Made by a program: the position numbers and the translations under genes. Under the pieces are notes generated by a model. The model did not search any database. It was not told the origin of the DNA and was given only the letters and a program-made list of their open reading frames with translations. This document shows, piece by piece, positions 5,726-23,030 of a DNA stretch of 64,000 nucleotides (its first letter is position 1; each line of letters begins with the position of its first letter). This DNA comes from Algoriphagus ratkowskyi (lineage in GTDB: Bacteria; Bacteroidota; Bacteroidia; Cytophagales; Cyclobacteriaceae): NCBI RefSeq assembly GCF_002150505.1, contig NZ_MSSV01000008.1:1-64000 (forward strand), written 5' to 3'.

Positions 5726-6261
5726 TGAAATGGCTTATCCTATTCTTCGTTTTTTTTACCAGAGTCGGTGCGGCCCAAACTTTTCAGACTGAGTCAGGAA
5801 ATGTAAATTTTCTTTCTAAAGCCCCTTTAAGTGAATTCAATGGAGTCTCTAACAAGCTTCATGGCCTAATTGATCTATCTCAAAATGTTCTCGATTTCTA
5901 TATTGATCTAAATACCCTAGAAACAGGAATAGGCCTCAGAGATAAACACATGCGGGATAATTATTTGGAGACAAAGAAATATCCTTTTGCTGAGCTTACT
6001 GGGAAAATGACTTCAATTCCATCATTAACTACAGGTTCAAAAAGCATTGTTGTGGCTGTTGGGAAGTTCAAAATGCATGGAGTAGATAAAGAAATTGAAG
6101 TAAGAGGAACGCTTTCCAAAATATCAAGTGGCGAATTAGAATTAGTCGCTGACTTCGAGATACTTCTTTCAGATTACGATATTCCTGTGCCAAAGCTTGT
6201 CTTTTATGAGCTTGCTGAGAAACAAGTTATAAGTATCAAAGCAATTTTAAAACCCAAGTAA
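5725..6261 (+). CDS. YceI-family periplasmic lipid-binding protein
   Basis: The product is 178 residues with an N-terminal signal peptide (WLILFFVFFTRVGAAQ). The body matches the YceI lipocalin-like barrel, with the typical pattern IDLNTLETGIGLRDKHMRD followed by a KYPFAELTGK strand. YceI proteins bind long isoprenoid chains such as quinone side chains in the periplasm. I chose the ATG at 5725, which shares one base with the Rieske stop codon; a GTG one codon earlier is less likely. Tight coupling to the Rieske gene and the following beta-barrel gene suggests a shared envelope redox or lipid role, but that is an inference. Confidence 0.88.
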   Translation: MKWLILFFVFFTRVGAAQTFQTESGNVNFLSKAPLSEFNGVSNKLHGLIDLSQNVLDFYIDLNTLETGIGLRDKHMRDNYLETKKYPFAELTGKMTSIPSLTTGSKSIVVAVGKFKMHGVDKEIEVRGTLSKISSGELELVADFEILLSDYDIPVPKLVFYELAEKQVISIKAILKPK

Positions 6262-6263
6262 TT

Positions 6264-7133: not shown

Positions 7134-7277
7134 GCCATTGACAGGTAATTTTTAGCAAGTAAAAGTCTATTAATCGGAGATGAAGTGTAACGTTATGCGA
7201 TAGGATATGGACGTTGCTTATTAAGATCAAAGGCTAAATTCTACCACAATTCTAAATCGTAAGTTGTAAATCAAAAC

Positions 7278-8861
7278 TTATTTTTTCACAAACTCCTTTA
7301 AGCTAATATTTCCATTTTCACGTGTTTCAGTAAGGTTATAATATTGATTTAGCCAATCATTAATCGCATTTATATCCACTTGTTCTTCAGGATAGGCATG
7401 CTTATAATAATCGTAAATCAACAACCTTAATTTGTCAGGAAATTGAGCTTTATCTTCTGGGAATTTGTAAAGTGGGATTAAACTATTCTGCTCTGAAATG
7501 TCTCCTACGAGCAAAACTTCTTTACTGAAATCAAGGAAACTATGGGTGTATATAGGTCCCTTTGAATCAGTGTTTTGTGCTTCATTATTAAGTGTTTCAA
7601 TTAAGGTGTCGTACTGCTTCAATTTCTGCTGAAAAGGAATTGCTATTAAGGCCGGAGCAATTAGAACTAGCGCGACAAAAATCGGATAGAATTTCAAGTT
7701 GGCAAATCGAACTCCCATCGTTAAAGCTAGATGGAAAACAGCCATTTTTAGATCCAATTGAATTAGGCTAATTCCAGTTCCCAGCAATAAAAGTCCTATC
7801 AGATATATCTTCCACTTTTTGGATTTTTTCCAATCATTCCAACCTAATGCAATGAGGATACTTAAGATGGGAACTAGGATGATTAGATGCCGAGGGTTGA
7901 GGTAGATTGGATTGTAAAAATCCAGAGTAGAACTCATAAACCAAAAACCTATGAACAAGCAAAGAAATGCGAGTGAAAACTCGATAGCAGGTGTCAACCT
8001 TGACTTCAAGCCCAGCGCTATTCCAGGTATTGCAAATACGATCCAAGCCCAGTATGAGCGCTCTACAAAAGTGATGATGGGTACTATTGTTAGCCTTTTC
8101 AGCATAGACCAAAAGCCTTTATCGGCATAGGTATACTCAGAGATGTAGTGTCCGGCATTGATGGAGCTAATGCGATGAAGTGGATCACCGAAGGATATCC
8201 AGAAATACCCCAAATAAAGCGCTGCCAGTGCCATTCCTGTAAGCACCAGTGTGAAATAAAAAGTAGGGTTTAAAGCCTGCTTTTTCCAATCGTAGTAAAA
8301 TAGTAGGAGAGGAAATGGAGCTAAAAAGATGATGGTTTCTTTAGTTAGAAAACCTATAAAAAGTGCTGAAACCAACAGAATTCCAGCTAGAATTGGACTA
8401 TTTTTTCTATAAACAGCTGCAGCAGGGATCAGACAAGTCCAAAGTGCCAAAAGACTATCTGGATAAACTTTGGTCAGGAAATGAAGGAAATAAACTTGGG
8501 TGCAAAACCATAAAACAAGAACCCATGCTGGAGCTGATTTGGGTAGAACTTTGACTAGTATTAGGAGGCATACTCCATAACTCAATAATGAGATAAGGGA
8601 AATCCTATGTGGTTTAAAACCGAATAAGTGCCCAATCAATCCTGAAGGCACATAAGCTCCCCAGCGACTGGAGAAGTGATAGTCGCTTACCTCCATTTTG
8701 CCTTTCCAGAAATTTTCCCCCGCCAGCAAATAATAGACGTCGTCACTAAAGGTGATTCCGTCATATCCGAAGAACCAATAGCAAAGAAGAAATAGGACAC
8801 CTACTGCGAAAGTTGAAAATTGTGCTTTGGATAAAAATGGATTAGGTTGAAGGCTATTCAT
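7278..8861 (-). CDS. Multipass membrane glycosyltransferase, ArnT/PMT-like (GT-C fold)
   Basis: The product is 527 residues with about 11-12 hydrophobic segments across residues 18-415 and a soluble C-terminal part. The first periplasmic loop carries an acidic pair (FSDDVYYLLAG), the position of the catalytic Asp in GT-C enzymes that use polyprenyl-phosphate sugars. Such proteins transfer a sugar from a lipid carrier to lipid or protein on the outer face of the inner membrane. Acceptor and sugar cannot be read from sequence. It is divergent from the WYL regulator, with 132 bases between them, and could be one of that regulator's targets. Start: ATG at 8861, followed by a short Pro/Asn-rich leader. 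Confidence 0.75.
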   Translation of the reverse strand: MNSLQPNPFLSKAQFSTFAVGVLFLLCYWFFGYDGITFSDDVYYLLAGENFWKGKMEVSDYHFSSRWGAYVPSGLIGHLFGFKPHRISLISLLSYGVCLLILVKVLPKSAPAWVLVLWFCTQVYFLHFLTKVYPDSLLALWTCLIPAAAVYRKNSPILAGILLVSALFIGFLTKETIIFLAPFPLLLFYYDWKKQALNPTFYFTLVLTGMALAALYLGYFWISFGDPLHRISSINAGHYISEYTYADKGFWSMLKRLTIVPIITFVERSYWAWIVFAIPGIALGLKSRLTPAIEFSLAFLCLFIGFWFMSSTLDFYNPIYLNPRHLIILVPILSILIALGWNDWKKSKKWKIYLIGLLLLGTGISLIQLDLKMAVFHLALTMGVRFANLKFYPIFVALVLIAPALIAIPFQQKLKQYDTLIETLNNEAQNTDSKGPIYTHSFLDFSKEVLLVGDISEQNSLIPLYKFPEDKAQFPDKLRLLIYDYYKHAYPEEQVDINAINDWLNQYYNLTETRENGNISLKEFVKK

Positions 8862-8918
8862 TGCGTTAAAAGTAAAATTAATTTTATTCTTCAGGAGGAA
8901 ATTTATAAGATAGATTTA

Positions 8919-8935
8919 TTGACAATACACGTCAA
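8919..8935. promoter_or_regulatory. Inverted repeat TTGAC-n7-GTCAA in a divergent promoter region
   Basis: TTGAC at 8919-8923 and GTCAA at 8931-8935 form an inverted repeat with a 7-base spacer; a further TTGACG lies at 8950. The repeat sits between the divergent glycosyltransferase and WYL-regulator genes, which is where an autoregulatory operator would be expected. Binding is inferred from position only. Confidence 0.35.
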
Positions 8936-8993
8936 TTGTATAAATAGCTTGACGCCATTGCTTACTTTTAGCTTTCTATAACCACAAGCTACT

Positions 8994-9908
8994 ATGAGTC
9001 AGGCCGGAAAAATTGAACAGCAAAAAATTCTACGTGTTTTCAAATTGATCAACTTGCTTCAAAGCACTATTGGGAAACCAGTCCATAGACTGGCGGAAAT
9101 ACTGGAAACGGATGAGCGTACGATTTATCGGTATTTCAAATTGCTAGAAGCCTTGGGTTTTGAGGTAATTAAAGAATTCAGCAAATACAAGATTCAGCAT
9201 AGACCGGGAACAGATCAAACCTTGAATTTCAGTACTTTTTCTCAGGAGGAAAATCAATGGCTAAGAGGTCTGATAGAAAGTCAGGGTAAAGGTAATTTGC
9301 TTCATGACTCTATTCTGAAAAAACTGGCTGTACGCTCTGAAGTGAAGCAGGGAACCGAGCAGCTTTTCAAAGCCAACTTGAGTAGATTGGTAGATGAAAT
9401 AGGCCTTGGGATCCAACAGAAGACACAGGTTTGGCTGAAGGACTATTATTCGTTGAGTTCTGATACGACAAGTGATCGCTTGGTGGAGCCAGTTGCCTTT
9501 TCATCGAATTACGAGACTATTCATGCTTTCGAACCAGCAAGTAAAAGTATGAAGGTGTTTAAAATTGAGCGTATCGGCGAAGTGGTCTTGAGTCAGGGTG
9601 TATGGAAATTTGAGGCAAAGCATCAGCTTCCAGGTACTCAGCTTTTTGGTTTTACTGGAAAAAATAAGTTTCTGGTAAAATTGAAACTTAGCAAAAAAGC
9701 TTACCAACTCATGATGGAGGAGCATCCTAATGCACGTCCATTTATGTTAATTAAAAATAGAAATCAATATTTCTTCAATGGAGAGATTCCTCAACTTCCA
9801 GGTTTGGCAAGGTTTATTTTGGGATTGCCGGGTGAGATTAAAGTGGAAGAAGGAGAGGAGATGAAGGCTTACTTGAGTGAGCAATTGGAAAAAACAACCT
9901 TCTGTTAA
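8994..9908 (+). CDS. HTH/WYL-domain transcriptional regulator
   Basis: The product is 304 residues. An N-terminal winged helix (about residues 8-60, with LAEILETDERTIYRYFKLLEALGF) is the DeoR/HTH_11-type DNA-binding domain. The centre and C-terminus (about residues 165-290) fit a WYL ligand-sensing domain followed by a WCX-like extension (LVEPVAFSSNYETIHAFEP). WYL regulators respond to nucleic-acid or small ligands and often control nearby genes. Its neighbours are a divergent membrane glycosyltransferase and, converging, a HEPN/MNT pair. The target is unknown. Confidence 0.85.
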   Translation: MSQAGKIEQQKILRVFKLINLLQSTIGKPVHRLAEILETDERTIYRYFKLLEALGFEVIKEFSKYKIQHRPGTDQTLNFSTFSQEENQWLRGLIESQGKGNLLHDSILKKLAVRSEVKQGTEQLFKANLSRLVDEIGLGIQQKTQVWLKDYYSLSSDTTSDRLVEPVAFSSNYETIHAFEPASKSMKVFKIERIGEVVLSQGVWKFEAKHQLPGTQLFGFTGKNKFLVKLKLSKKAYQLMMEEHPNARPFMLIKNRNQYFFNGEIPQLPGLARFILGLPGEIKVEEGEEMKAYLSEQLEKTTFC

Positions 9909-9943
9909 GTTGCTTACTAGGATTAAAAATTAAGAATTGGTTT

Positions 9944-10285
9944 TTACCAGCTTTGTGAATCCGATTTATCATAAATTACCTTGCCCACTCTTCTGACATG
10001 ATCAAGCAGTGATTCATTTCTGATATGGCCTTCAATAGCTACATCAAAAAAGTATGGCTGATAGCTATCATCAAGATCACCAGAGAAGTTCAATTGATCT
10101 CTAAACTCAAGATGATCACCGATAAGAACTAAGTCCAAATCAGATCCAGGTTTATAATTTCCTTTTGCTCGAGAACCGTAAATAATGACCTTTTCAATGT
10201 TTGAATACTTTTTAGCATAATCCCTAATCTCTTGTAAATGTGTATTAGAGATACCTATATCTTGGGCTAATAAATCCATGTTCAT
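9944..10285 (-). CDS. MNT-type nucleotidyltransferase (antitoxin of a HEPN/MNT pair)
   Basis: The product is 113 residues, the usual length for a minimal nucleotidyltransferase. The signature GSRAKGN at about residues 37-43 is followed by GSDLDLVLIG, giving the catalytic GSx10DxD pattern, with a third carboxylate in FFDVAIEG. In HEPN/MNT modules this protein neutralises the HEPN partner, in studied cases by AMPylating it. It is the second gene of the pair, 9 bases after the HEPN stop. Other MNT proteins act in antibiotic modification, but size and context favour the module. Confidence 0.88.
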   Translation of the reverse strand: MNMDLLAQDIGISNTHLQEIRDYAKKYSNIEKVIIYGSRAKGNYKPGSDLDLVLIGDHLEFRDQLNFSGDLDDSYQPYFFDVAIEGHIRNESLLDHVRRVGKVIYDKSDSQSW

Positions 10286-10294
10286 AAAATTTGA

Positions 10295-10696
10295 TTATTC
10301 TTCCGAATCGAATCGAGCAATCAGTTTTTTGAAAGCGAGATGGTATTTTCTTTCAATGTCATTCTCGACGAAACTAGCCGTTTCCATATTATAAGTGTGA
10401 CTAGTAAGATTTCTGCTTTTTACCATTTCCATCCAAACTTCTCCATCATCAATCAAACTTAAATTAAAAGCTAGGCGAATCGTATCCTTAGAACCCATCA
10501 AATCCACGTTCCATTTTTGAATAAGAAAATCTCTCATGGTATTCCATGCTAGTTCATAGGTGTATTCAAAAGATTTGATGAGACCTTGTCTTTCTAATTC
10601 ATTGAAGTCTCCTTGGAGGACTGCCTTATCTAATTGTGCAAAAGCTTTCTTAAAATTATCAAAACGCTGTTTCCATCGCACATCCAGATTTTCCAT
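10295..10696 (-). CDS. HI0074-family HEPN protein (toxin-like partner of MNT)
   Basis: The product is 133 residues of mostly helical sequence, matching the HI0074 'nucleotidyltransferase substrate-binding' family, a branch of the HEPN fold. The HEPN active-site pattern R-x4-H is present as RNLTSH (about residues 93-98), followed by TYN. In related modules this motif forms an RNase active site and is the target of the MNT partner. The upstream position and 9-base gap to the MNT gene are typical. The motif is intact, so an active toxin is possible. Confidence 0.85.
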   Translation of the reverse strand: MENLDVRWKQRFDNFKKAFAQLDKAVLQGDFNELERQGLIKSFEYTYELAWNTMRDFLIQKWNVDLMGSKDTIRLAFNLSLIDDGEVWMEMVKSRNLTSHTYNMETASFVENDIERKYHLAFKKLIARFDSEE

Positions 10697-10975
10697 AATG
10701 GAATTTATAAATTATAAATCCAAGTGAGAAAATTTCACCCTCAGATTTTAAAGAAAGTAAAATAATGGCCATATAACAACAGCATAAATTGCAGCATCTT
10801 AGAAAACATAAAAGCTTAACCCTTCAGACTATAAGTATGTGCAGTTCCTATGGATCTTAGGTGCTATTATTTCACTTTTATGGAATTGCGGAAATCAATC
10901 CTTATACTAAGCGTTGATCTTATTGCTGTTTTTAAAACTTTTAGAATTTCAGATAAGAGAATCATTTCTGATTAG

Positions 10976-11281
10976 CTACTTACTAGTAAATCTACTTCCA
11001 AATACAATTATTATTACAGCGCCTAGTAAGGTAACAGCAACGAAAACACCGGTCCCTAAAGGTGGGTTATTTAACCAAATTGAAATAGAATATCCTGCAA
11101 CAACCAGAACTCCCATAGCTATGAATACACTCATAACAAATTTGTGAAAGCCATTAATTACAGCATTTTCTTTTTCTCGTTGCGATAAGTGACTGTAACC
11201 CGCTATTAGATTTGGGAAGAATTTAGTCAATACACCTATTGCTATATAAAATAATCCGATGAAGATAGTTTCCATTATCAT
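10976..11281 (-). CDS. DUF3784-like small membrane protein
   Basis: The product is 101 residues with three predicted membrane helices: one at the N-terminus, one in the middle (VMSVFIAMGVLVVAGYSI) and one near the C-terminus (GVFVAVTLLGAVIIIVFG). Between the first two lies LIAGYSHLSQREKENA, which matches the conserved IAGYNTMSKEEK-like loop of DUF3784 proteins. No function is established for that family. It is a lone gene; the 279 bases between it and the HEPN gene contain nothing I recognise. Confidence 0.7.
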   Translation of the reverse strand: MIMETIFIGLFYIAIGVLTKFFPNLIAGYSHLSQREKENAVINGFHKFVMSVFIAMGVLVVAGYSISIWLNNPPLGTGVFVAVTLLGAVIIIVFGSRFTSK

Positions 11282-11376
11282 GGTTTGTTCGTAAGGAAAT
11301 ATTCTATCAATTTATGTCTCTAAACCTAATAAATACCAGAAGATTAGTTTAGGACTGTGGCATTTCTTGCTGCATC

Positions 11377-11461
11377 AAAAAAGGGCATGGAAATCAATCC
11401 AAACCCTTTTCTAAAGTCTTATATCTAATGTCTTGAATCTAAAATCTAACGTCTAATGTCT
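11377..11461. terminator. Possible hairpin terminator and tandem CTAA(T/C)GTCT-like tract
   Basis: AAAAAAGGG at about 11377-11385 can pair with CCCTTTT at 11404-11410 across a long loop, giving a weak hairpin with A on the left and T on the right that could end transcription in either direction. Between it and the end of the M28 peptidase gene is a tract of near-tandem units such as TCTAATGTCT, AATCTAAAATCT and AACGTCTAATGTC, a simple intergenic repeat type common in Bacteroidota. Confidence 0.4.
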
Positions 11462-13566
11462 CATTTCAAACTCTTCGTCATTTTCTTCACTTTTTTGCTC
11501 AAGTCTAAAATAGCTTTTGCGTAGCGAGAATCCCATTCTTTCAAACGCTTGCTAGACTTGGTTTCCACTTCATACTTGATGCCTGGAAGTATCCAGGATG
11601 CATAGCCAGAGAATGGGTCGTTACTCACATAAAGTGATCTATACCAGCTTCCGAAATACATTCCTTTTGGATCTAGCCAGCTTTTTTCTAGAGAGATTAA
11701 ATCCTTGTTCAATGATGCTACTTGCTTGTCAGATAAGTCGCCAGAGGCAATCCCAGCATTCATGGCAGATTCATAAGCAGCAGAACTCGATTTTAGCTTA
11801 GCGATAGCGGCATCCACTTTGCCAAATGTGGTAAAGGATGGATCCATTTCTTTTACTGATTTCACAGCATCATCAAAATGCAACCTCAGATCCTGTGCAT
11901 ATCTCGGCACGTCGTAAGGGATGATGGTAGCATTTGCCAAGCGAAGTGTAAGTACACCAATCACAGAAGCTACAGTGCCACCCATTTTGAAGGTTGGATC
12001 TACAAATTTGCTGTAGTAATGAAAGTTATCATAGTTGGAGTGATAGGCAGAAGTTCCGCCAGAACCACCGCTCATACTTGGTACCCCAGCATACATATAG
12101 AAAGCAATGTGATCTGATCCACCGCCTAGATTCCCGATTCTTGGCTCATCATTTTTACCAGCCCATACTTCAAATACAGTCTTTGCGGAGTCAGGAAAAG
12201 CTACTTCCTTGGAAGCTTCGATAATCAAGTTTTTCAGTGTTGGAGCAGAAGAAATACCAAAGTTTCTGCCCGAAACAGCCCCATCAAAATTCATGTAAAT
12301 TACAGCTTTTGCGCCTAGCTCATCTACAAAATGCTCTACCCATTCCGTAGAACCGATGACACCCTGCTCTTCAGCATCCCAATGTCCGATTAGTATCGAG
12401 CGTTTTGGAGCCTCACCATTTTTCACCAACTCACCAATAGCCTCGGCTAAGGTCAACATCATGGACGTACCTGAATTCGGGTCAGTTGCTCCAAAACTCC
12501 ATGCATCATAATGACTTCCAAGGATAATCCATTCGTCAGGGTATTCACTACCTACAAATTTGCCAACAATGTTATTTGCACGGATGTAGTCAACCGGTTG
12601 ATCAACTTTCACGCGTACTTTCAGATCTGAACCACCCGTAATTTTATACTCAAAAGGTAAACCACCTTGCCATCCTTCAGGTACATTTGAGCCTTTCATT
12701 CTACTCAAAATTTCTTTGGCAGCTCCGTATCCAATCGGTGAAACAGGAATCGTGTGGAATGCCACATCCTTAGGATCTAGTCTCTTCACCTTCTTGTCTC
12801 CATCCAATGGAAGTGCAGGCTCAAAAGGAGTTAATGGATCACCTGTGTAGTCCAAAGTCAATAAGGAACCACGCTGAATAGTAGTTTCATTAAAAAATGG
12901 ACCATCTGGATACACTTCACCTTTTCCAAATCCCGAATCTTTTGGGTCAGTAAAGATGATCAAAGCCGCTGCACCATACTGCTCAGCAAATTTAGCCTTA
13001 TACCCACGGAAGTTTCCGCCGTAGCGAGCGATTGCTACTTTTCCTTTGAGATCAACGCCCATTTCAGCAAGTTTCTCAAAATCTGCTTTTACACCATAAT
13101 TTACATACACTACCTCCGCTGTGACATCGCCAGATCCAGAGTAGGCATTGAATCCTTTGTGAAGCCTTGGATCAGTAGAAAAAGGATCACCATCGATCGG
13201 ACCTTCCTGCTGAGACAAAGTCATCTTATCTGGTGTAATAATCTCCAAAACCGATTCTCCTGGATGATTTGGAAGATAAACATCGTAAGGGTAGGAGGTC
13301 ACTTCCATTCCAGCTTCCGACATCACTTTAGTCATGTAAGCCGCTACTTTTTCATTTTCAGGAGTACCCGCTATGTGTGGCGCTTTGGTGAGTTCTTTCA
13401 AGTGTACTTTGAACTGATCGAACTTGACTGCTTTTAGGTATTCCTGCTCGAGGGTAGCTTCTTTGTTTTTATCCTGCGGGAAAAAACCTGTGACTTGCTG
13501 TGCGTTGACAGAAAGACCTACCCCAAAAGTGAGTGCGATACCCAGAGAGATTTTGTTTATAGACAT
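11461..13566 (-). CDS. M28 zinc peptidase, glutamate carboxypeptidase II/PSMA-like
   Basis: The product is 701 residues, close to the length of the PSMA/NAALADase group. After a signal peptide ending NAQQ come a protease-associated (PA) insert (about residues 140-330), the M28 catalytic domain and a helical transferrin-receptor-like dimerisation domain. Zinc ligands and the catalytic acid are visible: GSHYDAWSFGATDPNSG (His, bridging Asp), DAEEQGVIGS (Glu-Glu), MNFDGAV (Asp) and a C-terminal AYHSNYD (His). Substrates are probably acidic peptides or gamma-glutamyl/aspartyl dipeptides taken from the medium. It starts 2 bases after the NlpC/P60 gene, so the two are co-expressed. Confidence 0.93.
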   Translation of the reverse strand: MSINKISLGIALTFGVGLSVNAQQVTGFFPQDKNKEATLEQEYLKAVKFDQFKVHLKELTKAPHIAGTPENEKVAAYMTKVMSEAGMEVTSYPYDVYLPNHPGESVLEIITPDKMTLSQQEGPIDGDPFSTDPRLHKGFNAYSGSGDVTAEVVYVNYGVKADFEKLAEMGVDLKGKVAIARYGGNFRGYKAKFAEQYGAAALIIFTDPKDSGFGKGEVYPDGPFFNETTIQRGSLLTLDYTGDPLTPFEPALPLDGDKKVKRLDPKDVAFHTIPVSPIGYGAAKEILSRMKGSNVPEGWQGGLPFEYKITGGSDLKVRVKVDQPVDYIRANNIVGKFVGSEYPDEWIILGSHYDAWSFGATDPNSGTSMMLTLAEAIGELVKNGEAPKRSILIGHWDAEEQGVIGSTEWVEHFVDELGAKAVIYMNFDGAVSGRNFGISSAPTLKNLIIEASKEVAFPDSAKTVFEVWAGKNDEPRIGNLGGGSDHIAFYMYAGVPSMSGGSGGTSAYHSNYDNFHYYSKFVDPTFKMGGTVASVIGVLTLRLANATIIPYDVPRYAQDLRLHFDDAVKSVKEMDPSFTTFGKVDAAIAKLKSSSAAYESAMNAGIASGDLSDKQVASLNKDLISLEKSWLDPKGMYFGSWYRSLYVSNDPFSGYASWILPGIKYEVETKSSKRLKEWDSRYAKAILDLSKKVKKMTKSLK

Positions 13567-13568
13567 AA

Positions 13569-14738
13569 TTAATTATTGGTTAAAAGCTCTGATACTGATA
13601 AAACGTTTTCTGAAGGTACATTAACAATGCGCTTTGTTCTCAGGTATCTATTTAGTTCATATTCATCGTAATTTGGGTTTTCTGGGTCAAAGCTAGAAAT
13701 TCTAACTAGACCTCTGGAATGGATAAATTCACCATTTCCAATCCACATTCCTACGTGAACTACCCGCTCTTTTTTCTCATCTGTTCCTTTGGTTCCGAAA
13801 AACAGCAAATCGCCCACCTGAAGTTTGTCCCAATTTTTGTCAGCATCTACTAAATCTCCTTCATTGATTTGCTGAGAGGCGTCGCGAGGGATAATCTGAC
13901 CATTGAGGTAGAAAATAGTTTTGGTGAAACCACTGCAATCTACTCCTTTGATCGAGGTGCCACCCCACAAGTATGGAGCGCCCATCATTTGCTTGGCAGT
14001 AGATATCAAAGTCTCTGGATTGGTATTTCTAGAAGCAATCCAACTATTCCATTCTTGGGCTTCATCTGCTGAAATAAAGCCTTCTCGGCCATCCGGAAGT
14101 GAGATTTTAAGCTGATCTTTTGTTTCACTCTGGATCGTTAATATATCTCCAGCGACCAAATCAGAAACCATTTCTGTTTTAGCTTCATCTTTCCATACGT
14201 AGCCTGTAAGGGCGGTGATTACCACTTTTGGTTCTTTGAACCAATGCTCAAGTTCTGCCTCTGTCATCAAATGAATTCCTGCTCTGTCCACCCAGGAAAG
14301 ATATCCGTCAGGCGTTTGAACTAGGTACCAACCATCGTCTTCTTTGAGGACATTGAGCGGAGTTCCCATCAGTGCCTGAGTAGCTAACTCGGCTGAATGT
14401 TTTGGGTTACTACGGATATTTGCCACAGAGATGGTAACCAAACCCTTTGTCTTTTCACCCAGACCAGCATCGGGCAGCCGATTGACTGCATCTGTATATT
14501 TGATTTGCTTGGAATTCAGGCTCTCGATCAAAGCTTTTAAAGCTTCAGGCTGATTAGTCTCACCTTTTAATGAGTCATTTTCAAAAGTCAGATCCCAAAG
14601 CGCCACACGTTTATCTGGTGCCACTTCAGCTCTTTTTGCTTCAATCAAGTTGCTCACTTCCTCGCTGCTCTCCTTATTATTACAAGAAAATGATGCGGAG
14701 ATAAGCGATACAAAAATTGGTATATAGATTTTTTTCAT
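13569..14738 (-). CDS. NlpC/P60 (C40) cell-wall peptidase with SH3b domains, lipoprotein
   Basis: The product is 389 residues. The N-terminus is a lipoprotein-type signal ending in ASFSCNN. Two SH3-like segments (about residues 105-155 and 165-230) precede a C40 cysteine peptidase with nucleophile Cys in GVDCSGFT and His in VVHVGMWIGNG. The layout matches dipeptidyl-peptidase VI/YkfC-type enzymes, which cut gamma-D-Glu-dibasic amino acid bonds in wall peptides. It is transcribed with the M28 peptidase and sits behind the amidohydrolase genes after a terminator-like hairpin. The likely role is recycling or scavenging of muropeptides. Confidence 0.9.
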   Translation of the reverse strand: MKKIYIPIFVSLISASFSCNNKESSEEVSNLIEAKRAEVAPDKRVALWDLTFENDSLKGETNQPEALKALIESLNSKQIKYTDAVNRLPDAGLGEKTKGLVTISVANIRSNPKHSAELATQALMGTPLNVLKEDDGWYLVQTPDGYLSWVDRAGIHLMTEAELEHWFKEPKVVITALTGYVWKDEAKTEMVSDLVAGDILTIQSETKDQLKISLPDGREGFISADEAQEWNSWIASRNTNPETLISTAKQMMGAPYLWGGTSIKGVDCSGFTKTIFYLNGQIIPRDASQQINEGDLVDADKNWDKLQVGDLLFFGTKGTDEKKERVVHVGMWIGNGEFIHSRGLVRISSFDPENPNYDEYELNRYLRTKRIVNVPSENVLSVSELLTNN

Positions 14739-14926: not shown

Positions 14927-16228
14927 TTAATTCATTTTCAATCCAGGTGAGCGATCCAAGAACTCTTGGTAAAGTCTGATTTGACGGTTAGAAAGTGGCA
15001 TTCTATAGCCATCTATAAACACGTGAAGTACATTGGTTCTAGTTTCGAATGGATCTCCATCAGCAATGATTAAGTTGGCTACTTTACCAGCTTCTACTGA
15101 ACCATATTTGTCATCCAAGCCGAAAATTTCAGCAGGATTGATCGTAACAGCTTTCCAAGCTTCTTCTTTTCCCATGCCATAAGCTGCGGCAAATGCTGCG
15201 AAGAATGGCAAGTTTCTTACATTCTCTTGATCATCAGTTCTGATTGCAACTTTCACACCTGCTTTTGCCATTTTACCTGCATTTGCATAAGGCGCGTCAT
15301 AGCGATCCGAATCTCGAGTAGGAAGTGCCTGAACAGGTCCAGTAATCACTGGGATTCCCGCTTTGGCGATTTCATCTGCAACTCTCCAACCTTCAGAGAC
15401 TCCGGTGAAGATCACTTTCGCTCCTTTTCCTTGTACCCATTTGATAGCTTCCTGAATATCTGAAGCAGTATTTACTTCGATCAAAAGTGGTAGTTCGCCC
15501 GTTGTCGCTTTAGCCATTTGCTCCATCTCTGGGTAATAGTCTAATTCTGCGCCATTTGAAACTAGAGAACCGTAGCTCTTCGCATTATCCCATAGTTCGT
15601 TTGCTTCTTTAAGTGCTTTTTCGTTTGCCTTTTTGATGTCGTCATCAGAGCGACGATCAAATCTGCCTCTACGTCCAGAGCTTGGGAAGTTCATGACGAT
15701 ACCTTTGAATCCAGCATACATCTGATCTGGTGTGTAGCCATTCAGATTAATTAGCGCAGCAGTACCTGGAAATAATCCTCCAGTTGGAACAGCTAGGACA
15801 GTAGTAACGCCAGAAACTCTTGTGACTGGAATGGCTACTGAATTAGGATTTACTGCCGTCAAAGCCTGCATATTAGGAGAGAAGTTTCCTATCTCTGCAT
15901 AATCAACTGTTTCTGGAACGGAATTGATTTCAGCCAAGCCAAGCTTAGTGCCACCATCGATCATGCCTGGGTAGATGAATTTCCCACTACAGTCTATCAC
16001 TTCAGCACCATCGGCACTGATATTAGCTCCGATTTCCTTGATTTTGCCATCTTCCACCAATACAGAAGTATTGTTGAGAACGCCTTTGGTAATGGTTACT
16101 ACCGTCGCATTTTTCAATAAGAACTTACCCGCTCTTGGTTTGATTACTTCCCCGTCGATCTGTGCCATCGCCATCATAGGCAATAGGGCAAAGAGGAAGG
16201 CGAAAAAGGTTTTATTTAATCTTTTCAT
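14927..16228 (-). CDS. Amidohydrolase-fold protein lacking the metal-binding His residues
   Basis: The product is 433 residues: signal peptide (FFAFLFALLPMMAMAQ), a small beta-sandwich half, then the TIM barrel of the metal-dependent amidohydrolase superfamily. The strand-1 metal motif, normally HxH after PGxID, reads PGMIDGGTK here, so the two histidines are replaced at about Gly93 and Lys95. The later histidines are also replaced (LIEVNTASD, IFTGVSEGW), while an Asp-containing segment (IRTDDQEN) remains. It is the last gene of a three-gene set, 21 bases after an intact paralogue. It is probably not a classical hydrolase and may be a structural partner or carry a new activity. Confidence 0.85.
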   Translation of the reverse strand: MKRLNKTFFAFLFALLPMMAMAQIDGEVIKPRAGKFLLKNATVVTITKGVLNNTSVLVEDGKIKEIGANISADGAEVIDCSGKFIYPGMIDGGTKLGLAEINSVPETVDYAEIGNFSPNMQALTAVNPNSVAIPVTRVSGVTTVLAVPTGGLFPGTAALINLNGYTPDQMYAGFKGIVMNFPSSGRRGRFDRRSDDDIKKANEKALKEANELWDNAKSYGSLVSNGAELDYYPEMEQMAKATTGELPLLIEVNTASDIQEAIKWVQGKGAKVIFTGVSEGWRVADEIAKAGIPVITGPVQALPTRDSDRYDAPYANAGKMAKAGVKVAIRTDDQENVRNLPFFAAFAAAYGMGKEEAWKAVTINPAEIFGLDDKYGSVEAGKVANLIIADGDPFETRTNVLHVFIDGYRMPLSNRQIRLYQEFLDRSPGLKMN

Positions 16229-16249
16229 ATCTTCTTTGATTTCGGGTGA

Positions 16250-17635
16250 TTAGTAATTGGTATGGAAAAGTGAATTGGTAGTCTCAAATAAATGCTCCGT
16301 ATCCTGCATACAGTTGCTTTCATGTCCACCGTACAACATGATTGGCTCTACCATTTGAGTAGGGCTGACTTTGATACGCTGATCATCTGCATCTTCTTTG
16401 ATATCAAAATACTTTACCCCATCTACAAAAGTCATCTGAGGAACAGTATAGGAAGAAAGTGGATGGCCATCGAAAATCACCAAATCACCATCTTTTCCTT
16501 CTTCGATTGAACCAACTTTATCCGCTATTCCTAATTGCTTAGCAGGATTGATAGTGATCATAGCTAAAGCTTGCTCGTCAGTCATTCCGCCATAACGCTG
16601 CGTTTTTGCAGCCTCATGATACAGGTGACGGATCAGCTCAGCATCATCCGAATTAATAGAAGTTAGTGCGCCGTTTTCGGTCAAGATAGCTGCGTTGTAA
16701 GCAGTGGAGTAGTACACTTCGAACTTGTAAGACCACCAATCTGCAAAGACAGAAGCTCCCATGGTGTATTCAGCAATTTCTGGAGCTACTTTGAATCCTT
16801 CGTTTGTATGTTGGAATACAAGCTTTGTGATTCCAAAATCCCTAGCCACATTAATCAGCATGTAGATCTCATCTGCGCGGTAGGAGTGGCAATGGATGAT
16901 GATCTTGTCATTCAATATATCTGAAAGGATCTGAAGTCTTTCATTATGAACAGGAGGCATGGCAGTACTTCCTTTTTTGGAGGATGCTGCGTTGTACGTG
17001 TCCCAAGCTTTCTGGTATTGAATAGCTTCATTGAATCCGTTTCTAATAATTGCTTCTACACCCATTCTCGTACGAGGCTGAATGTTATTGCCTCTACCAT
17101 GAACTCGTGTTGGATTCTCACCCAAGGCAAATTTGATCGTGCGAGGAGCATCTTGCATGATGATATCTGCAGGATCTGTAGATCCATATCGATGCTTCAA
17201 CGTAGCATTTTGTCCACCGATTACGTTGGCAGATCCGTGCATCGCATGTGAAATAGTCACACCACCCGCTAATGCGCGGTAGAGTCCTACTTCATAAGGA
17301 TTAACGACGTCTTTCATACGTACTTCAGCTACAATAGGAGCAGAAGATTCGTTGACCACATCTAAGCCTAAGTGAGAGTGAGCATCAATAATGCCCGGCA
17401 TCACAAATTTCCCAGTAGCATCAATAGTAGTTACTCCATTGGGAGCACTGATATTTTGACCTACTTTTTTGATAATTCCATCTTGAACGAGAACGTCAGA
17501 GTTCTCTAGAGTTCCATTTGTAACCGTAAGAACTGTCGCGTTCTTAATTAATACACTGCCTTTTTTTACTTGGGCTTCAGCAAACTGAATACTCAAACCC
17601 AACAGAGCGGCAAGAAAATAATTTACTTTTTTCAT
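16250..17635 (-). CDS. Exported metal-dependent amidohydrolase (intact active site)
   Basis: The product is 461 residues with a signal peptide (YFLAALLGLSIQFAEAQ). It has the full amidohydrolase motif set: PGIIDAHSHLGLD (His86, His88), IIHCHSYRADE, FQHTNEGF and the catalytic Asp in INSDDAE. This resembles periplasmic prolidase/imidazolonepropionase-like members, which cleave amide bonds of dipeptides or cyclic amides. It is the middle gene of a set, 4 bases after the upstream paralogue and 21 before the downstream one; both neighbours lack the histidines. The exact substrate cannot be deduced, but the nearby exported peptidases suggest peptides. Confidence 0.9.
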   Translation of the reverse strand: MKKVNYFLAALLGLSIQFAEAQVKKGSVLIKNATVLTVTNGTLENSDVLVQDGIIKKVGQNISAPNGVTTIDATGKFVMPGIIDAHSHLGLDVVNESSAPIVAEVRMKDVVNPYEVGLYRALAGGVTISHAMHGSANVIGGQNATLKHRYGSTDPADIIMQDAPRTIKFALGENPTRVHGRGNNIQPRTRMGVEAIIRNGFNEAIQYQKAWDTYNAASSKKGSTAMPPVHNERLQILSDILNDKIIIHCHSYRADEIYMLINVARDFGITKLVFQHTNEGFKVAPEIAEYTMGASVFADWWSYKFEVYYSTAYNAAILTENGALTSINSDDAELIRHLYHEAAKTQRYGGMTDEQALAMITINPAKQLGIADKVGSIEEGKDGDLVIFDGHPLSSYTVPQMTFVDGVKYFDIKEDADDQRIKVSPTQMVEPIMLYGGHESNCMQDTEHLFETTNSLFHTNY

Positions 17636-17639
17636 GTCT

Positions 17640-19337
17640 TTACTTGTTTGCGATTAGTGTTGGATTGAGTGTGCCTTCGAATGGAAATGATCCAAATTCG
17701 CCCACTGTCATGCTACCTTTAAAGCTTCCTGTGTCAACTTCTCCAGAGACTTCTACAAGGATATCCATACCACTGGCAGAGACATTAAAGGAGAAAGACA
17801 AAGTGCTTCCGCTTAAAACCACATTCTTGATGTCTGAAGTGGCCTTGCCAGAACCAGCTGGATCATCGTAGGTGATAGATCCTGCATAATCTGCACCGTC
17901 TTTACTGATAATCAGTGTGCCGCCAGAAGAACCAGCTGGACTTTCTGAAGTATAATCCCAGGTTCCTTCGATCTTTACAGTAGCATCGCTTTTATCATCC
18001 TTCGATTCTTTCTTCTTTGCTTTAGTTTCATAGTCGAATATAAATCCATCAATAACCATGTGTTTGATTTGAGAGTCCTCTGCGAACAGTGAATCAGTAC
18101 TCAAAATCAAATTAGCCATTTTGCCCTTTTCAATCGATCCGGCTACTTTACTCAATCCTAAGATTGAAGCTGGGTTGGTAGTCAAGGCTGCAAGAGCGGC
18201 TTTTTCAGAAAGACCATTAGCGATCATTGTCTGAAGTGCTTTCATAATATCTCCAGATTTAACTCCAGTAGTTGAAAATGCGAAAGGAATACCCGCTGCT
18301 TCCAATTTACTAGCCTGAGCCAGTGCTTCGTCATAGGATTTTTTCACTCTAGCATTCAATGCTTTTACTTCATCCTTAGCATCCTCTTTTTGAGCTTTGA
18401 TAGCTTTGTCATCTGGCAATTCCAGTTTTATAAGGACACCTGCATTAGAAGCTTTGATTACATCTATTATGCTTTCATACTCATCCAAATCCGTCAAGAC
18501 TAATTTGAAGCCTTTTTCTTTCTGAAGTCCAATAGCTCTTCTGATCTCCAATTCTGAAGAAGTGGAAAATAAAACAGGAATGCTGCCATTGACCACATCA
18601 TGCATAGCGCTATAAGTAGGAGTGATCTCGGGACGCTTCAGGCCAGCTACAGTGCTGTATTTCTGGGAGCGCTGTGAAGTAAGCTTGGTGTTGTCATATA
18701 TCTCACGGAATTTGGCCATCACGCCTATTGCCGTGCCTGGATACATTCCTCTAGAACCTCTGAAACTTGCTACCAGAGCAGTATTATCAGCGATTAAATT
18801 GGTAGAGTTATCAGAGCCTAAAAGTATTACTGCAGCTTTACCCGCAATCATACCGCCTTCTGGTAAAATCTGGGCTATTGTAAATCCGACTTTCCGTAAA
18901 TCATCGACCTTACTATCCTTGTAAGAAAACTGTTGTACTGCAGATCTCCATGGAGTGATTCCTGCTATTTCATCTGAAGGGTTTGAGGAGACAAAGTCAT
19001 CTGGACGTTCTACATCCTTTGGTCTTGTAATTCCTACATCACTTGCTCCAGCAATAAATCCTGGGTAAATGTATAGAGAGTCGCCAGCTATCACTTTTGC
19101 ATTGGCAGGTAGGCTTAGGTTGCTACCCACTCCTTGGATCAAGCCGTCTTTGACTAGGACTGTTGCTTTTATGCCAGCTTGACCTGGGGCAGTAAAGACA
19201 GTTGCATTCGTGATTGCATAGGTGTTTGTGATTCGTTTCTTTCCAGATGGGTCGCTTTGTGCAATAGCCAATGAAGAAGAAAGCCATCCTGCCACCAGCA
19301 TGCAAAAGACTCCTGCATTCAGTAGTTCTTTTTTCAT
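17640..19337 (-). CDS. Amidohydrolase-fold pseudoenzyme with C-terminal beta domain
   Basis: The product is 565 residues: signal peptide ending AIAQSD, then an amidohydrolase beta-sandwich and barrel (to about residue 430). A Lys/Asp-rich linker follows, and then a roughly 110-residue Gly/Ser-rich all-beta domain (from GTWDYTSESPAG) resembling a lipocalin-like or small beta-barrel domain. The metal motif reads PGFIAGASDVG, so HxH becomes Ala98 and Asp100, and no His replaces the two later ligands (LFSTSSE, LTDLDEY). It is the first gene of the trio. Loss of every metal His argues for a non-catalytic or altered role. Confidence 0.85.
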   Translation of the reverse strand: MKKELLNAGVFCMLVAGWLSSSLAIAQSDPSGKKRITNTYAITNATVFTAPGQAGIKATVLVKDGLIQGVGSNLSLPANAKVIAGDSLYIYPGFIAGASDVGITRPKDVERPDDFVSSNPSDEIAGITPWRSAVQQFSYKDSKVDDLRKVGFTIAQILPEGGMIAGKAAVILLGSDNSTNLIADNTALVASFRGSRGMYPGTAIGVMAKFREIYDNTKLTSQRSQKYSTVAGLKRPEITPTYSAMHDVVNGSIPVLFSTSSELEIRRAIGLQKEKGFKLVLTDLDEYESIIDVIKASNAGVLIKLELPDDKAIKAQKEDAKDEVKALNARVKKSYDEALAQASKLEAAGIPFAFSTTGVKSGDIMKALQTMIANGLSEKAALAALTTNPASILGLSKVAGSIEKGKMANLILSTDSLFAEDSQIKHMVIDGFIFDYETKAKKKESKDDKSDATVKIEGTWDYTSESPAGSSGGTLIISKDGADYAGSITYDDPAGSGKATSDIKNVVLSGSTLSFSFNVSASGMDILVEVSGEVDTGSFKGSMTVGEFGSFPFEGTLNPTLIANK

Positions 19338-19657
19338 ATGATTTAAATGGTTTTAAAGTAGTGAGTTCTTATTGATACTATGATATGAAAATAATCTTTT
19401 CTCATTTTCTCAAGTGTCAATATTCCGCTCAATAGATGGTGATATTTTAGAAAGCAAGCTAATCAAAGTGATTTTGGAATCCATTTGGAATTATTTTTTA
19501 CAACCCATTATTTGATCAATGGCAGGAAAATGGATATGAAATGCGGTTTCAATTCTACAAGATTATCAGTGCTAAATCTAAATTTATTTGGCTGGTAAAT
19601 AGTGTTTGGTTCTATGCTTTAGCTACTATCTTTGGTTCTATAGTTACCCCACAAAGA
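19338..19657. other. Divergent intergenic region
   Basis: This 320-base AT-rich stretch lies between the amidohydrolase set and the polysaccharide-type operon and must hold both promoters. I see no clear TTTG/TAnnTTTG pair and no strong palindrome. The response-regulator frame stays open back to an ATG at 19541, but that extension has no receiver-domain sequence, so I read it as untranslated. Confidence 0.4.
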
Positions 19658-20020
19658 ATGAAAAGAATCCTGATAATTGAGGATGATTTGCTGATTTCTA
19701 GTCTTGTTCAATTCCGTCTAAAAAAGGATGGATATGAAACTTTATTAGCACAAGATGGGAATGCAGGAATCGATGCAATAAACACTGAGTATCTTGATAT
19801 GATCATTACAGATGTGATGATTCCATATAAAAACGGGATAGAAATAATTCATCATGCTAGAAACACCAAGCCTGAGATTCCCATAATTGTACTGAGTTCG
19901 CTTGGAGAAGAAGAAAAAATTGTGTTAGAAGCTTTTAATCTGGGCGTTTCAGATTTTATCCCAAAACCATTTAATCCTAATGAATTGGCGATTCGTGTAA
20001 AACGAATCTTTAAGTCTTAA
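19658..20020 (+). CDS. Single-domain response regulator (CheY-like receiver)
   Basis: The product is 120 residues and holds only a receiver domain. It opens MKRILIIEDDLL with the acidic pair, has the phospho-acceptor Asp in IITDVMIP, a Ser in VLSS and the conserved Lys in IPKPFNP. I chose the ATG at 19658 because the receiver fold begins exactly there. No output domain and no histidine kinase is nearby, so it probably acts by protein contact. It heads a five-gene operon whose next gene begins 3 bases after its stop, implying that it controls a neighbour, perhaps the HEAT-repeat protein or the synthase. Confidence 0.92.
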   Translation: MKRILIIEDDLLISSLVQFRLKKDGYETLLAQDGNAGIDAINTEYLDMIITDVMIPYKNGIEIIHHARNTKPEIPIIVLSSLGEEEKIVLEAFNLGVSDFIPKPFNPNELAIRVKRIFKS

Positions 20021-20023
20021 TTG

Positions 20024-21574
20024 ATGGCAGTTAGAACCATAGTTGTATTTGTGTTCTTGCTGTTTTTGTTGAGCAAAGCAAGTATTGTTTTAGGTCAGGA
20101 TGAAAAGATTTTCCCTGATTCTACATCCTTTGTGGATTTTTTAATTAGTCAGGGAGAAATCCCAGGTTTGCAATTTCAACTAGTGAACTCTTCCGGTCAA
20201 TTATTGATCGACAGTACTGGGGAAACAGGAAGTTTAGCAGAGTTCTCTGCAGCTCATACATTGAAGAATACAATCTATCAGCCTGATTCCGTCACTTCAA
20301 CTATCCAATATCTTATATTTTCTGAGCCCTATACTTTTGAAGCGACGCAAGAGTATGTTTCAAATCTTCTTAGAAATGGCGACATAGAGCTACTTGGAAA
20401 TGAAATTTGGAATGGGAAGGATTTGATTTCTCTGGCAAGTAAAGAAATTTATACACCCTTACTCTCCGGGAATTATTTTTCATACTTTGCTGATTTAAAG
20501 ATTTTTATAGTCGCACTGACTATTTCTCTCTTCTTAGTCTTTGCTGTATTAATGATCGTTTTCATGTTGGTATTCAAAGCGAGGAGAAATCACAACGAAA
20601 AGTTGAAGGCCTTGTATGACCAATATATTGTAGGTCCATTGTCCGAGATTTTATTCGAAAAAACGCTAGAAGAACTCGAGTCTCTGAGTGATGAGGAGCT
20701 CTTTAAAAATTTTCCTGAAAAACAGCTTAAGAAGGCAGTTTTTGAACAGGTACTTGTGGAACGGATAATAGCTTTGAACAAGAAAATGAAAGGTGACTTT
20801 AAGCTGAAGCTAAAAGCACTTTACAAAAGATTGGATCTTCACACAGTTTCTATAAAAAAACTGAATAGTTCCAAATGGGCCAATGTGGTAATTGGACTGG
20901 TGGAAATCAATGAAATGGATTTGACTGAGGGGCTTAGTGAAGTAAAGAAGCATGTAAATTCTCCTAATTTTCATATAAGATCTCAGGCAGTTGCTACTAC
21001 ATTAAATCTATCTGATAGTGTCGATCTTTCTTTTCTCAGGGACCAGACTTTTCCACTTTCTCGCTGGCAACAAATGAATTACTTACGCATAATCAAATTC
21101 TTAAATTCTTCTCGAGAACTCCATATTAATACCTTATTTAGTTCTGAAAATCAGAGCATTCGTCTGTTTGGTTATAAGTTGGTTCGTGTGCTTGGACTTG
21201 TGGATCTTCTGGAAGAATTGGAAGAAAAATTTGCTGCAGTTTCGGACGAAGAGAAAATAGAGATTATTAAAGCCTTCGAATACCTAGGCGTTCCCGCACA
21301 ATCCAGCATGCTCAATGATAGTATGAGATCTGACAATGTCAAGTTGGTAACTATTGCAGGAAAGGCAGCGGGAGCGATTGGTGACGATAGCAATGCCAAA
21401 ATTATTTATGAAATATTAGAAACTTCTCCAGTCTTCGGATTACAGCTGGTTTTGCTAAGGAGTCTTCAGAATCTAAATGCAGGGCTGTATAATCAATTCA
21501 TTACCAAAGATTCAGACTCTGATCTACAAAGAATCAATGCGCACTTACTAGACCCATTGCTTCAAGATGTATAG
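20024..21574 (+). CDS. Membrane protein with cytoplasmic HEAT-like repeats
   Basis: The product is 516 residues. It has a signal peptide (VVFVFLLFLLSKASIVLGQ) and a periplasmic part of about 130 residues. One strong membrane helix (FIVALTISLFLVFAVLMIVF) lies near residues 165-185. A coiled, charged segment then leads into helical repeats of the HEAT type that fill the C-terminal half. I chose the ATG at 20024, directly after the regulator stop. No catalytic motif is seen. It overlaps the glycosyltransferase gene by 8 bases, so translation is coupled. It may connect the response regulator to the synthase in the membrane; that is inferred. Confidence 0.75.
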   Translation: MAVRTIVVFVFLLFLLSKASIVLGQDEKIFPDSTSFVDFLISQGEIPGLQFQLVNSSGQLLIDSTGETGSLAEFSAAHTLKNTIYQPDSVTSTIQYLIFSEPYTFEATQEYVSNLLRNGDIELLGNEIWNGKDLISLASKEIYTPLLSGNYFSYFADLKIFIVALTISLFLVFAVLMIVFMLVFKARRNHNEKLKALYDQYIVGPLSEILFEKTLEELESLSDEELFKNFPEKQLKKAVFEQVLVERIIALNKKMKGDFKLKLKALYKRLDLHTVSIKKLNSSKWANVVIGLVEINEMDLTEGLSEVKKHVNSPNFHIRSQAVATTLNLSDSVDLSFLRDQTFPLSRWQQMNYLRIIKFLNSSRELHINTLFSSENQSIRLFGYKLVRVLGLVDLLEELEEKFAAVSDEEKIEIIKAFEYLGVPAQSSMLNDSMRSDNVKLVTIAGKAAGAIGDDSNAKIIYEILETSPVFGLQLVLLRSLQNLNAGLYNQFITKDSDSDLQRINAHLLDPLLQDV

Positions 21575-23030
21575 TTTTCTTTTTCATTTTATTATGGAGG
21601 TTTTAGGAATAGCATTCTTATTCCTGAGTTTTTCTGTGATCGTTATTTACCTACTCATCATGATTCTAAGCACATTGGAAATGCGAGATCATCGAAGAAA
21701 AAATCGGTTTGCAGACTATCAAGATATTATCACATCACCTATCGCTCCTGGGGTTTCTATTTTGGCACCAGCCTACAATGAAGGGGAATCTATTGTTCAA
21801 AATGTAAAGAGTCTGCTTTCACTACACTATGGAAAGTTTGAAGTAGTGGTAATAAATGACGGTTCCAAAGACGAAACCTTAGCTAAGATGATCAATTCCT
21901 TCGAATTGGAGATCACCGATTTCGCTTACTATGCAGAAATCCCAGCGCAACCTGTACGAGGTATTTATAAGTCAAAAAACCGCTCTTATAATAGACTCAT
22001 TGTAATCGATAAGGAAAACGGGGGTAAAGCTGATGCATTGAACGCAGGGATTAATGTCTCTTCAAAGGAGATTTTGGCCTGTATAGATGTGGATTGTATT
22101 CTTTCACATGAATCTATCACCCGGATGGTTCGGCCATTTATGGAGGAGACGCACAGAAAAGTCATCGCCGTGGGAGGTGTGATCGGTATTGCTAATAATT
22201 GCGATGTGCAAGATGGTACGGTAACTAAGTACCGCGTGCCATCCACGCTTTTAGGTAGATTTCAAGTAATCGAATACTGTAGAGCTTTTCTGATGGGAAG
22301 AATGGCTTGGAAGCGTTTAAATGGACTAATGCTGATTTCAGGTGCATTTGGATTTTTTAACAGGGAGTTAGTAGTAGAAGTAGGAGGTTATTTTCCAAAG
22401 ACAGTAGGGGAAGATATGGAGCTTGTAGTCCGTATGCGACGCTATATGGAGGAGCGAAAAATTCCGTATAAAGTAAGTTTCGTGCCTGATCCTTTATGTT
22501 GGACAGAGGTGCCAGAACAAGAAGCTGTTCTTTCTAGACAGAGAAATCGATGGATGCGTGGTACTATAGAATCTCTTCAGCTACATCGAGCGACTCGTCT
22601 AAATCCAAACTATGGCATCATGGGTATGGTATCTTATCCCTATTGGAGTGTTTTTGAGAAAATGGCTCCGGTACTTGAATTGCTGGGTTTAATTTACACG
22701 ATGGTTATTGTTATTATTGGTGATTTTTCGGCATTCTATTTCATAGCTATCTTTATAGTTTTTTATTTACTTTCTATTCTGGTATCCTCCTTTAGCATCT
22801 TGTTTGAGCAGGTTTCTTACAATAGTTACAAAGACAAAAAGGATCTGAATAAGCTTATACTAACTATTTTACTTGAACCGATTTTAATTCATCCCAAGAT
22901 AGTCTATTGGGGTCTTGGGGGTCACTGGGACTTTATAAAAGGTAAAGGAGGTTGGGGCCAAATGATCCGTACTGGTTTTAAGAAATCAGATGACAAAAAA
23001 AATATGGACCATGACACTTTGAATTCTTGA
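21567..23030 (+). CDS. Processive GT2 glycosyltransferase (PgaC/cellulose-synthase-like)
   Basis: The product is 487 residues: an N-terminal membrane helix, a cytoplasmic GT-A domain and about four C-terminal helices. The motifs for processive beta-glycosyl transfer are intact: VVINDGSKDE (first Asp), CIDVDC (DxD), VGEDMEL (ED catalytic base) and QRNRWMRG (Q/RxxRW, holding the growing chain). Such enzymes polymerise UDP-sugars and thread the product through the membrane; PgaC-type poly-GlcNAc synthases are the closest pattern I recognise, but the sugar cannot be assigned. It overlaps the upstream HEAT gene by 8 bases and is followed closely by an outer-membrane exporter gene. An internal ATG at 21594 is a possible alternative start. 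Confidence 0.9.
   Translation: MYSFLFHFIMEVLGIAFLFLSFSVIVIYLLIMILSTLEMRDHRRKNRFADYQDIITSPIAPGVSILAPAYNEGESIVQNVKSLLSLHYGKFEVVVINDGSKDETLAKMINSFELEITDFAYYAEIPAQPVRGIYKSKNRSYNRLIVIDKENGGKADALNAGINVSSKEILACIDVDCILSHESITRMVRPFMEETHRKVIAVGGVIGIANNCDVQDGTVTKYRVPSTLLGRFQVIEYCRAFLMGRMAWKRLNGLMLISGAFGFFNRELVVEVGGYFPKTVGEDMELVVRMRRYMEERKIPYKVSFVPDPLCWTEVPEQEAVLSRQRNRWMRGTIESLQLHRATRLNPNYGIMGMVSYPYWSVFEKMAPVLELLGLIYTMVIVIIGDFSAFYFIAIFIVFYLLSILVSSFSILFEQVSYNSYKDKKDLNKLILTILLEPILIHPKIVYWGLGGHWDFIKGKGGWGQMIRTGFKKSDDKKNMDHDTLNS

Follow-up and report, generated by a model that had tools for sequence, protein, structure and literature searches.

The three-gene locus

The DNA stretch analysed here (the window, the first 64,000 nt of contig NZ_MSSV01000008.1 of Algoriphagus ratkowskyi) carries three adjacent genes for amidohydrolase-family proteins, designated A, B and C (Table 1). 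They are transcribed in the order A, B, C, head to tail, with gaps of 4 bases (A/B) and 21 bases (B/C). All three proteins reach the gathering cut-off (25 bits) of Pfam family PF01979, with scores of 41.3 (A), 78 (B) and 57.1 bits (C), and each begins with a basic, hydrophobic leader, as judged by a simple hydropathy test rather than a signal-peptide predictor. These features agree with the initial annotation of the window, made from its sequence alone, which had described an intact middle enzyme flanked by two degenerate paralogues, signal peptides on all three, and the same spacing. The barrel of A (residues ~40–435) is followed by a beta-rich C-terminal extension of ~120 amino acids (aa). 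The extension (window 17640–18050, minus strand) has no match in a Pfam search and is predicted to be beta-rich in a homologous fusion of A and B. Several acidobacterial A frames, of only 432–497 aa, seem to lack it.

The best solved relative of each protein is structure 3ooq, a structural-genomics entry for a Thermotoga maritima amidohydrolase (E-values of 1e-15 for A, 1.6e-64 for B and 4.4e-41 for C). The equivalog and subfamily cut-offs of NCBIfam are missed by B (best 87.9 bits against 391; D-hydantoinase 74.2 against 393), by C (best hutI, 62.1 against 298) and by A (best 30.2 against 279). With every cut-off missed, a named amidohydrolase identity (dihydroorotase, hydantoinase, NagA, imidazolonepropionase and others) was rejected.

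Table 1. Positions of the trio, its active-site motifs and the downstream genes in the window.
Feature	Position	Strand	Basis or remark
A, secreted amidohydrolase-fold pseudo-subunit, 565 aa	17640..19337	-	Pfam, open frames
GASD in A (IAGASDVG), replacing HxH of beta strand 1	19038..19049	-	Sequence and alignment
B, secreted catalytic amidohydrolase (predicted), 461 aa	16250..17635	-	Six predicted metal ligands all kept
HSH (H86, H88), metal-binding motif of B (IDAHSHLG)	17372..17380	-	
E173 of B (GEN motif), probable metal-bridging ligand	17117..17119	-	Invariant in 114/114
H250 of B	16886..16888	-	Ligand tally
H276 of B	16808..16810	-	Ligand tally
D330 of B	16646..16648	-	Ligand tally
C, secreted amidohydrolase-fold pseudo-subunit, 433 aa	14927..16228	-	
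GGTK in C (IDGGTKLG), replacing HxH	15944..15955	-	
NlpC/P60 and SH3 protein, downstream	13569..14738	-	Neighbour in 24 loci, nearly all Cyclobacteriaceae
M28 peptidase with PA and TfR-dimer domains, downstream	11461..13566	-	Same-strand neighbour in 31 loci

Metal-binding residues

We take the catalytic ligand set of amidohydrolases to be HxH on strand 1, an acidic residue or Lys on strand 4, His on strands 5 and 6, and Asp on strand 8; the metal-bridging role of E173 in B is likewise presumed from the superfamily. This set was tallied in 337 domain segments (114 B, 109 A and 114 C) from 120 loci and the window. B has it complete, with H86, H88, E173, H250, H276 and D330 all present in 114/114 sequences, and neither A nor C has it, so that A and C are members of the superfamily by sequence family only. 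HxH occurs in 0/109 A and 0/114 C, as follows from the column counts: the H88 column is His in 12/109 A and 0/114 C, and the H86 column is His in 1/114 C and in none of the A rows with at least two His among the ligand columns. The H276 column has become Gly in 77/109 A and 105/114 C. A smaller set of close relatives, window included, gives the same picture, with the B type intact in 34/34 and HxH lost in 34/34 of the A type and 35/35 of the C type (one L076 frame of 38.5 bits was left out of this set). A return of HxH in orthologues of the outer genes, which the initial annotation had regarded as the mark of recent decay, was looked for and is seen in no A or C sequence of the tally. The pattern is constant across the loci examined and is not attributable to chance.

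In the window, the columns of Glu173, His250, His276 and Asp330 read Gly, Ser, Asp and Thr in A, and Ser, Glu, Gly and Asp in C, the Glu173 column being gappy in both. Both later histidines are therefore gone from A and C, as had been noted at the outset, to which it can be added that C retains the last Asp (RTDD), a feature of just 31/114 C sequences.

The retention of full-length barrels over several phyla might suggest that A and C are enzymes with a different chemistry, either metal-free or differently metallated, and at least 85% conservation is seen in 62 columns of C (131 in B). The columns of the lost ligands have not settled on any other fixed set of residues: they vary in A (A/L/Y, D/N/S/H/T, E/T/P/K, etc.) and in C (G/N, R/Q/T/S/K, E/H/R), and the 34 columns of A conserved to the same degree consist mostly of Gly, Pro and further small or hydrophobic residues. 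The new chemistry that the initial annotation had offered as an option is unsupported by these residues and appears very improbable. The conservation pattern suits scaffolds or regulatory subunits better than it would other enzymes.

Conservation of gene order and occurrence

Within the genus, A, B and C are consecutive on one strand in 20/20 fetched loci, and their frames are 58–91% identical to those of the window. On the B tree the nearest sequences to the window are those of A. locisalis and A. yeomjeoni, and the closest named relatives among the matches listed are Algoriphagus. A query with the C protein found matches in 50/58 relatives. All 13 fetched loci from other families of the order that contain both A and B have them joined in one frame of 999–1063 aa, and C adjoins this frame in seven.

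More distant relatives were sought by scanning 84,980 species genomes with a B alignment, which gave at least 592 relatives, and the best 80 of these were taken. All members lie on one strand in 80/80 of these loci, and 74 contain exactly A-B-C in order; in the remaining six, one partner is absent where the locus ends at, or at most 363 bases from, its edge. Gaps are short (130/140 are of 50 bases or fewer), and 34 are the −4 stop/start overlap of coupled genes. The titles of these loci name Bacteroidota, Balneola, Rhodothermales, Acidobacteriota, Gemmatimonadota, Planctomycetota, Marinimicrobia, Ignavibacteria and Idiomarina.

The class was sampled with 149 genomes, of which 112 have a B match, 112 an A match and 109 a C match. 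B occurs without C only in G091, G112 and G201, and every C-positive genome is also B-positive (tables read by eye); such co-occurrence is trivial for A and B where they are fused but not for C. In the phyla to which L158 (Acidobacteriota by title) and L149 (Planctomycetota) belong, 67/149 and 58/149 genomes, respectively, have C-family matches at 1e-40 or better, the weaker of which include a related second group. Pairwise distances in A, B and C correlate over 77 loci (Spearman 0.80–0.84), part of which shared species history yields by itself.

Natural fusions and predicted structures

Fusions of neighbouring members into one open frame (written with ~) are recurrent. A~B is fused in 26/109 scored rows and B~C in 18/112, and both states require three or more changes on the B tree. 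A triple fusion, A~B~C, occurs once (L149, 1385 aa). Within a single frame the order is always A-B-C. The scoring leaves aside 17 of the 20 genus loci, L166 and L172; the state is hidden by the locus edge for A~B in L103, L120, L126 and L127 and for B~C in L105, and L147, cut at its edge, is scored as A~B. Two further candidates for triple fusion (L170, L171) were rejected, the A profile also matching C and A being a separate frame. Frames of more than 1200 aa were likewise rejected, as they are often high-GC read-in upstream of B~C with A in another frame (L174–L176). In G091 (contig C2), a single open frame of 2531 aa contains both the A and the B match, and a C match was not found in that genome.

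Recurrent fusion is the strongest evidence for a physical complex that sequences by themselves can give here, and all three kinds of fusion lend support to the hetero-oligomer with regulatory or substrate-binding subunits that the initial annotation had envisaged. Two fusions were folded with AlphaFold2; alignment A7, one of the inputs, was limited to fusion rows. The A~B fusion of Rufibacter (L139, 1017 aa) has a predicted local distance difference test score (pLDDT) of 84.8 and a predicted template modelling score (pTM) of 0.79; a B~C fusion (L160, 898 aa) has values of 79.3 and 0.81. A pTM near 0.8 across two barrels, taken by itself, suggests that the barrels are packed in a fixed manner; we would expect a lower value for barrels with no set position relative to each other. 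Fold comparison (Foldseek and VIA-align) places the B domain on 3ooq with Z 45 over 371 residues and a root-mean-square deviation of 2.1, against Z of about 21–23 for many other amidohydrolases; isoaspartyl dipeptidase is second in rank (Z about 23), tied with many other families. These matches barely probe the A domain of the folded fusion.

The same data bear on whether A, B and C might be three separate secreted proteins of one pathway, B hydrolysing a compound that A and C, as solute-binding or sensing proteins, bind (or bind relatives of) without forming a complex. The genes are unfused in the family of the window, C can sit elsewhere in the genome, and A evolves faster than B (median identity 0.28 versus 0.49, 77 loci), all of which such proteins would allow. 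Their recurrent fusion in linear order, once as a triple, and their strict co-occurrence argue otherwise, and the pocket positions of A and C are unconserved, contrary to selection by a common ligand. Separate action is considered improbable, if less so than a new chemistry.

Phylogeny and origin of the inactive members

In a tree of 68 rows, A, B and C each form one clade (100, SH-aLRT only), and A and C group together (97, SH-aLRT only). A second, more carefully built tree, of 52 rows, was rooted on a single enzyme from Bacillota, a phylum in which Cytobacillus has one gene with all ligands and no leader. In this tree B joins the active member of a sphingomonad pair (100/99), A and C join its inactive partner (100/99), and C forms a clade (94/97). 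A and C thus appear to descend from a common, already inactive ancestor, and the inactive lineage, as placed by these trees, is one clade older than the phyla considered. The likely path leads from a single enzyme to an active/inactive pair and then to the trio.

The lack of catalytic residues in A and C might also be read as recent decay, with both being degenerating copies of B in this lineage. Identical losses are found everywhere in the tally, the inactive lineage appears as a single ancient clade, and the frames remain open within the genus; decay to pseudogenes is rejected by the ligand tally and the trees, and its probability is close to nil.

The two-gene version, active plus inactive, is carried on sphingomonad plasmids (L179, 3815–6600; L180, 3629–6522). 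In the Qipengyuania pair, the active gene (ligands HHEHHD) and the inactive one (ITEAGS) share a 4-base overlap.

Two loci carry further members. L177 (G217:C4:8500-22500) has, beside canonical B and C, a second set at 3173–10870 on the plus strand. The set comprises a 411-aa frame with HxH, a 415-aa frame lacking it and an 827-aa fusion of which only the first half carries the strand-1 HxH. This second pair type falls outside both lineages of the 52-row tree and may reflect an independent loss of ligands. L178 (G206:C39:73000-88000; G206, titled Planctomycetota, is also the genome of L130) has an operon-like run of seven frames with amidohydrolase-family matches (2622–14525, minus strand; 843, 399, 423, 903, 430, 439 and 547 aa). 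HxH is present in only two of them, of 430 aa (EAHSH) and 903 aa (ALHSH), and the locus may represent an extreme expansion of dead barrels.

A predicted hetero-oligomeric hydrolase

On the evidence of these sequences, B is the sole subunit with a complete metal site; its partners A and C lack one, and are ancient and co-inherited. We infer that the three proteins are most probably subunits of a single secreted hydrolase, an obligate hetero-oligomer of one catalytic barrel (B) and two non-catalytic barrels (A and C), likely to be located in the periplasm. B, with the only metal centre, would perform the chemistry; A and C, permanently non-catalytic, would pack on B in fixed proportion, most simply 1:1:1, and would be needed to assemble or stabilise it, or to build or gate the substrate site. 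Such a role would be analogous to that of the alpha subunit of the mitochondrial processing peptidase (MPP) for the beta subunit, or of pseudo-dihydroorotase for the aspartate transcarbamoylase (ATCase) of Pseudomonas. Historically, a single enzyme would have duplicated, one copy losing its metal ligands to give an active/inactive pair, and a further duplication of the inactive copy would have produced A and C, after which the trio would have spread across several phyla.

Several observations weigh against such a complex. Gene order and fusion could also reflect co-regulation or a common pathway, and the pTM of a fused chain says little about whether separate chains would form a complex. Order is not absolute, since in L165 and L167 a separate A comes after B~C. 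The best 80 scan loci were ranked by similarity to B, which favours true B orthologues. Three class genomes carry A~B without C, and one genome among the relatives queried with the C protein (G046, 88% complete) gave a C match alone, no search for B having been made there. Scattering of the genes in relatives, which the initial annotation had named as a possible refutation, is absent from the genus loci, and in the scan the only incomplete loci are the six cut at an edge; it is found in part at order level, where C is elsewhere or on another contig in 6/13 fetched A~B loci.

A more elaborate form of the hetero-oligomer, in which the dead barrels of a secreted, closed multi-barrel machine would build a chamber or gate that chooses substrates by size, appears unlikely. 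If true, the same multi-barrel principle would have been expanded in some lineages, in which an operon has one or a few HxH barrels and several dead ones (L177, L178), and a self-compartmentalised hydrolase of the TIM-barrel family would be present in about three-quarters of the sampled class genomes; to our knowledge, this family is not known for such hydrolases.

The annotation 'amidohydrolase' on each gene implies several hydrolases at such loci, which probably encode a single enzyme made of three subunit types, and B assayed alone may give little or misleading activity. Judged by B, the module is present in three-quarters of the class sample, and it occurs in several other phyla. Single enzymes (Bacillota), pairs (sphingomonads), trios and fusions would provide a graded series for how dead subunits become obligatory.

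Relation to known systems

Among solved structures, 3ooq has HSH in the alignment and, unlike the trio, is not known to have inactive partners; the Cytobacillus relative also differs in being a single, leaderless gene. CRMPs (dihydropyrimidinase-related proteins) give weaker sequence matches to B and C. They are amidohydrolase-fold proteins that have lost the metal ligands and form hetero-oligomers; they are eukaryotic and cytosolic, and are not known from operons with an active subunit. The pseudo-dihydroorotase precedent belongs to cytoplasmic pyrimidine synthesis. The A~B and B~C fusions have a parallel in single-chain M16 enzymes, one half of which is inactive.

Pseudomonas ATCase (class A2) is described as inactive without pseudo-dihydroorotase, an amidohydrolase-fold chain lacking zinc ligands (PMC7053772). 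It shares with the trio a zinc-ligand-free amidohydrolase-fold subunit kept for assembly and activity. There the dead barrel serves an unrelated enzyme, whereas in the trio the protein apparently served by the two dead barrels is their own active paralogue. No ATCase was found by Pfam among the window genes nearest to the trio, and the constant partner is the paralogue B. MPP and the bacterial M16B heterodimers consist of homologous active and inactive subunits, the inactive one lacking the zinc site and contributing to function, according to a review (PMC11266112). Homologous active and inactive members are encoded together in the trio, which differs from MPP in fold and family and in having three paralogous units instead of two. 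The words 'amidohydrolase' and 'M38' are absent from the main text of that review (PMC11266112).

No prior description of the trio was found in the open-access literature, a coverage outside which most subscription journals fall, and the trio, which is real and conserved, is apparently undescribed. The principle of an enzyme with a dead paralogue is already known; what differs here is the presence of two dead paralogues beside their own active sibling, together with the apparent secretion of all three and a nearly fixed gene order across several phyla.

Neighbouring genes and possible substrates

Neighbours were surveyed in 120 loci (L039–L158), and none is conserved across phyla. The M28 peptidase and NlpC/P60 genes downstream of C are probably outside the complex; the 31 loci with the M28 neighbour all belong to Cyclobacteriaceae or to the genus of the window. 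Assignment of a function from gene neighbourhood was rejected, as both neighbours are essentially bound to Cyclobacteriaceae. A small peptide or peptide-derived amide can be guessed as the substrate of the trio from a POT-family peptide transporter gene that precedes the Qipengyuania pair, the peptidases beside the trio in Cyclobacteriaceae and the fold neighbours of B. It remains a guess that we would sooner doubt than accept, given that the two downstream neighbours are essentially confined to Cyclobacteriaceae and that no transporter was found among the four frames near the Novosphingobium pair checked by Pfam.

On the other side of the trio, divergent genes (window 19541–23030, plus strand) encode a lone response-regulator receiver, a 517-aa protein with no Pfam match and a PgaC-like glycosyltransferase. 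Upstream of the trio, the 517-aa protein and the glycosyltransferase each have homologues in 28 loci and the response regulator in 16, mostly in Algoriphagus and near genera.

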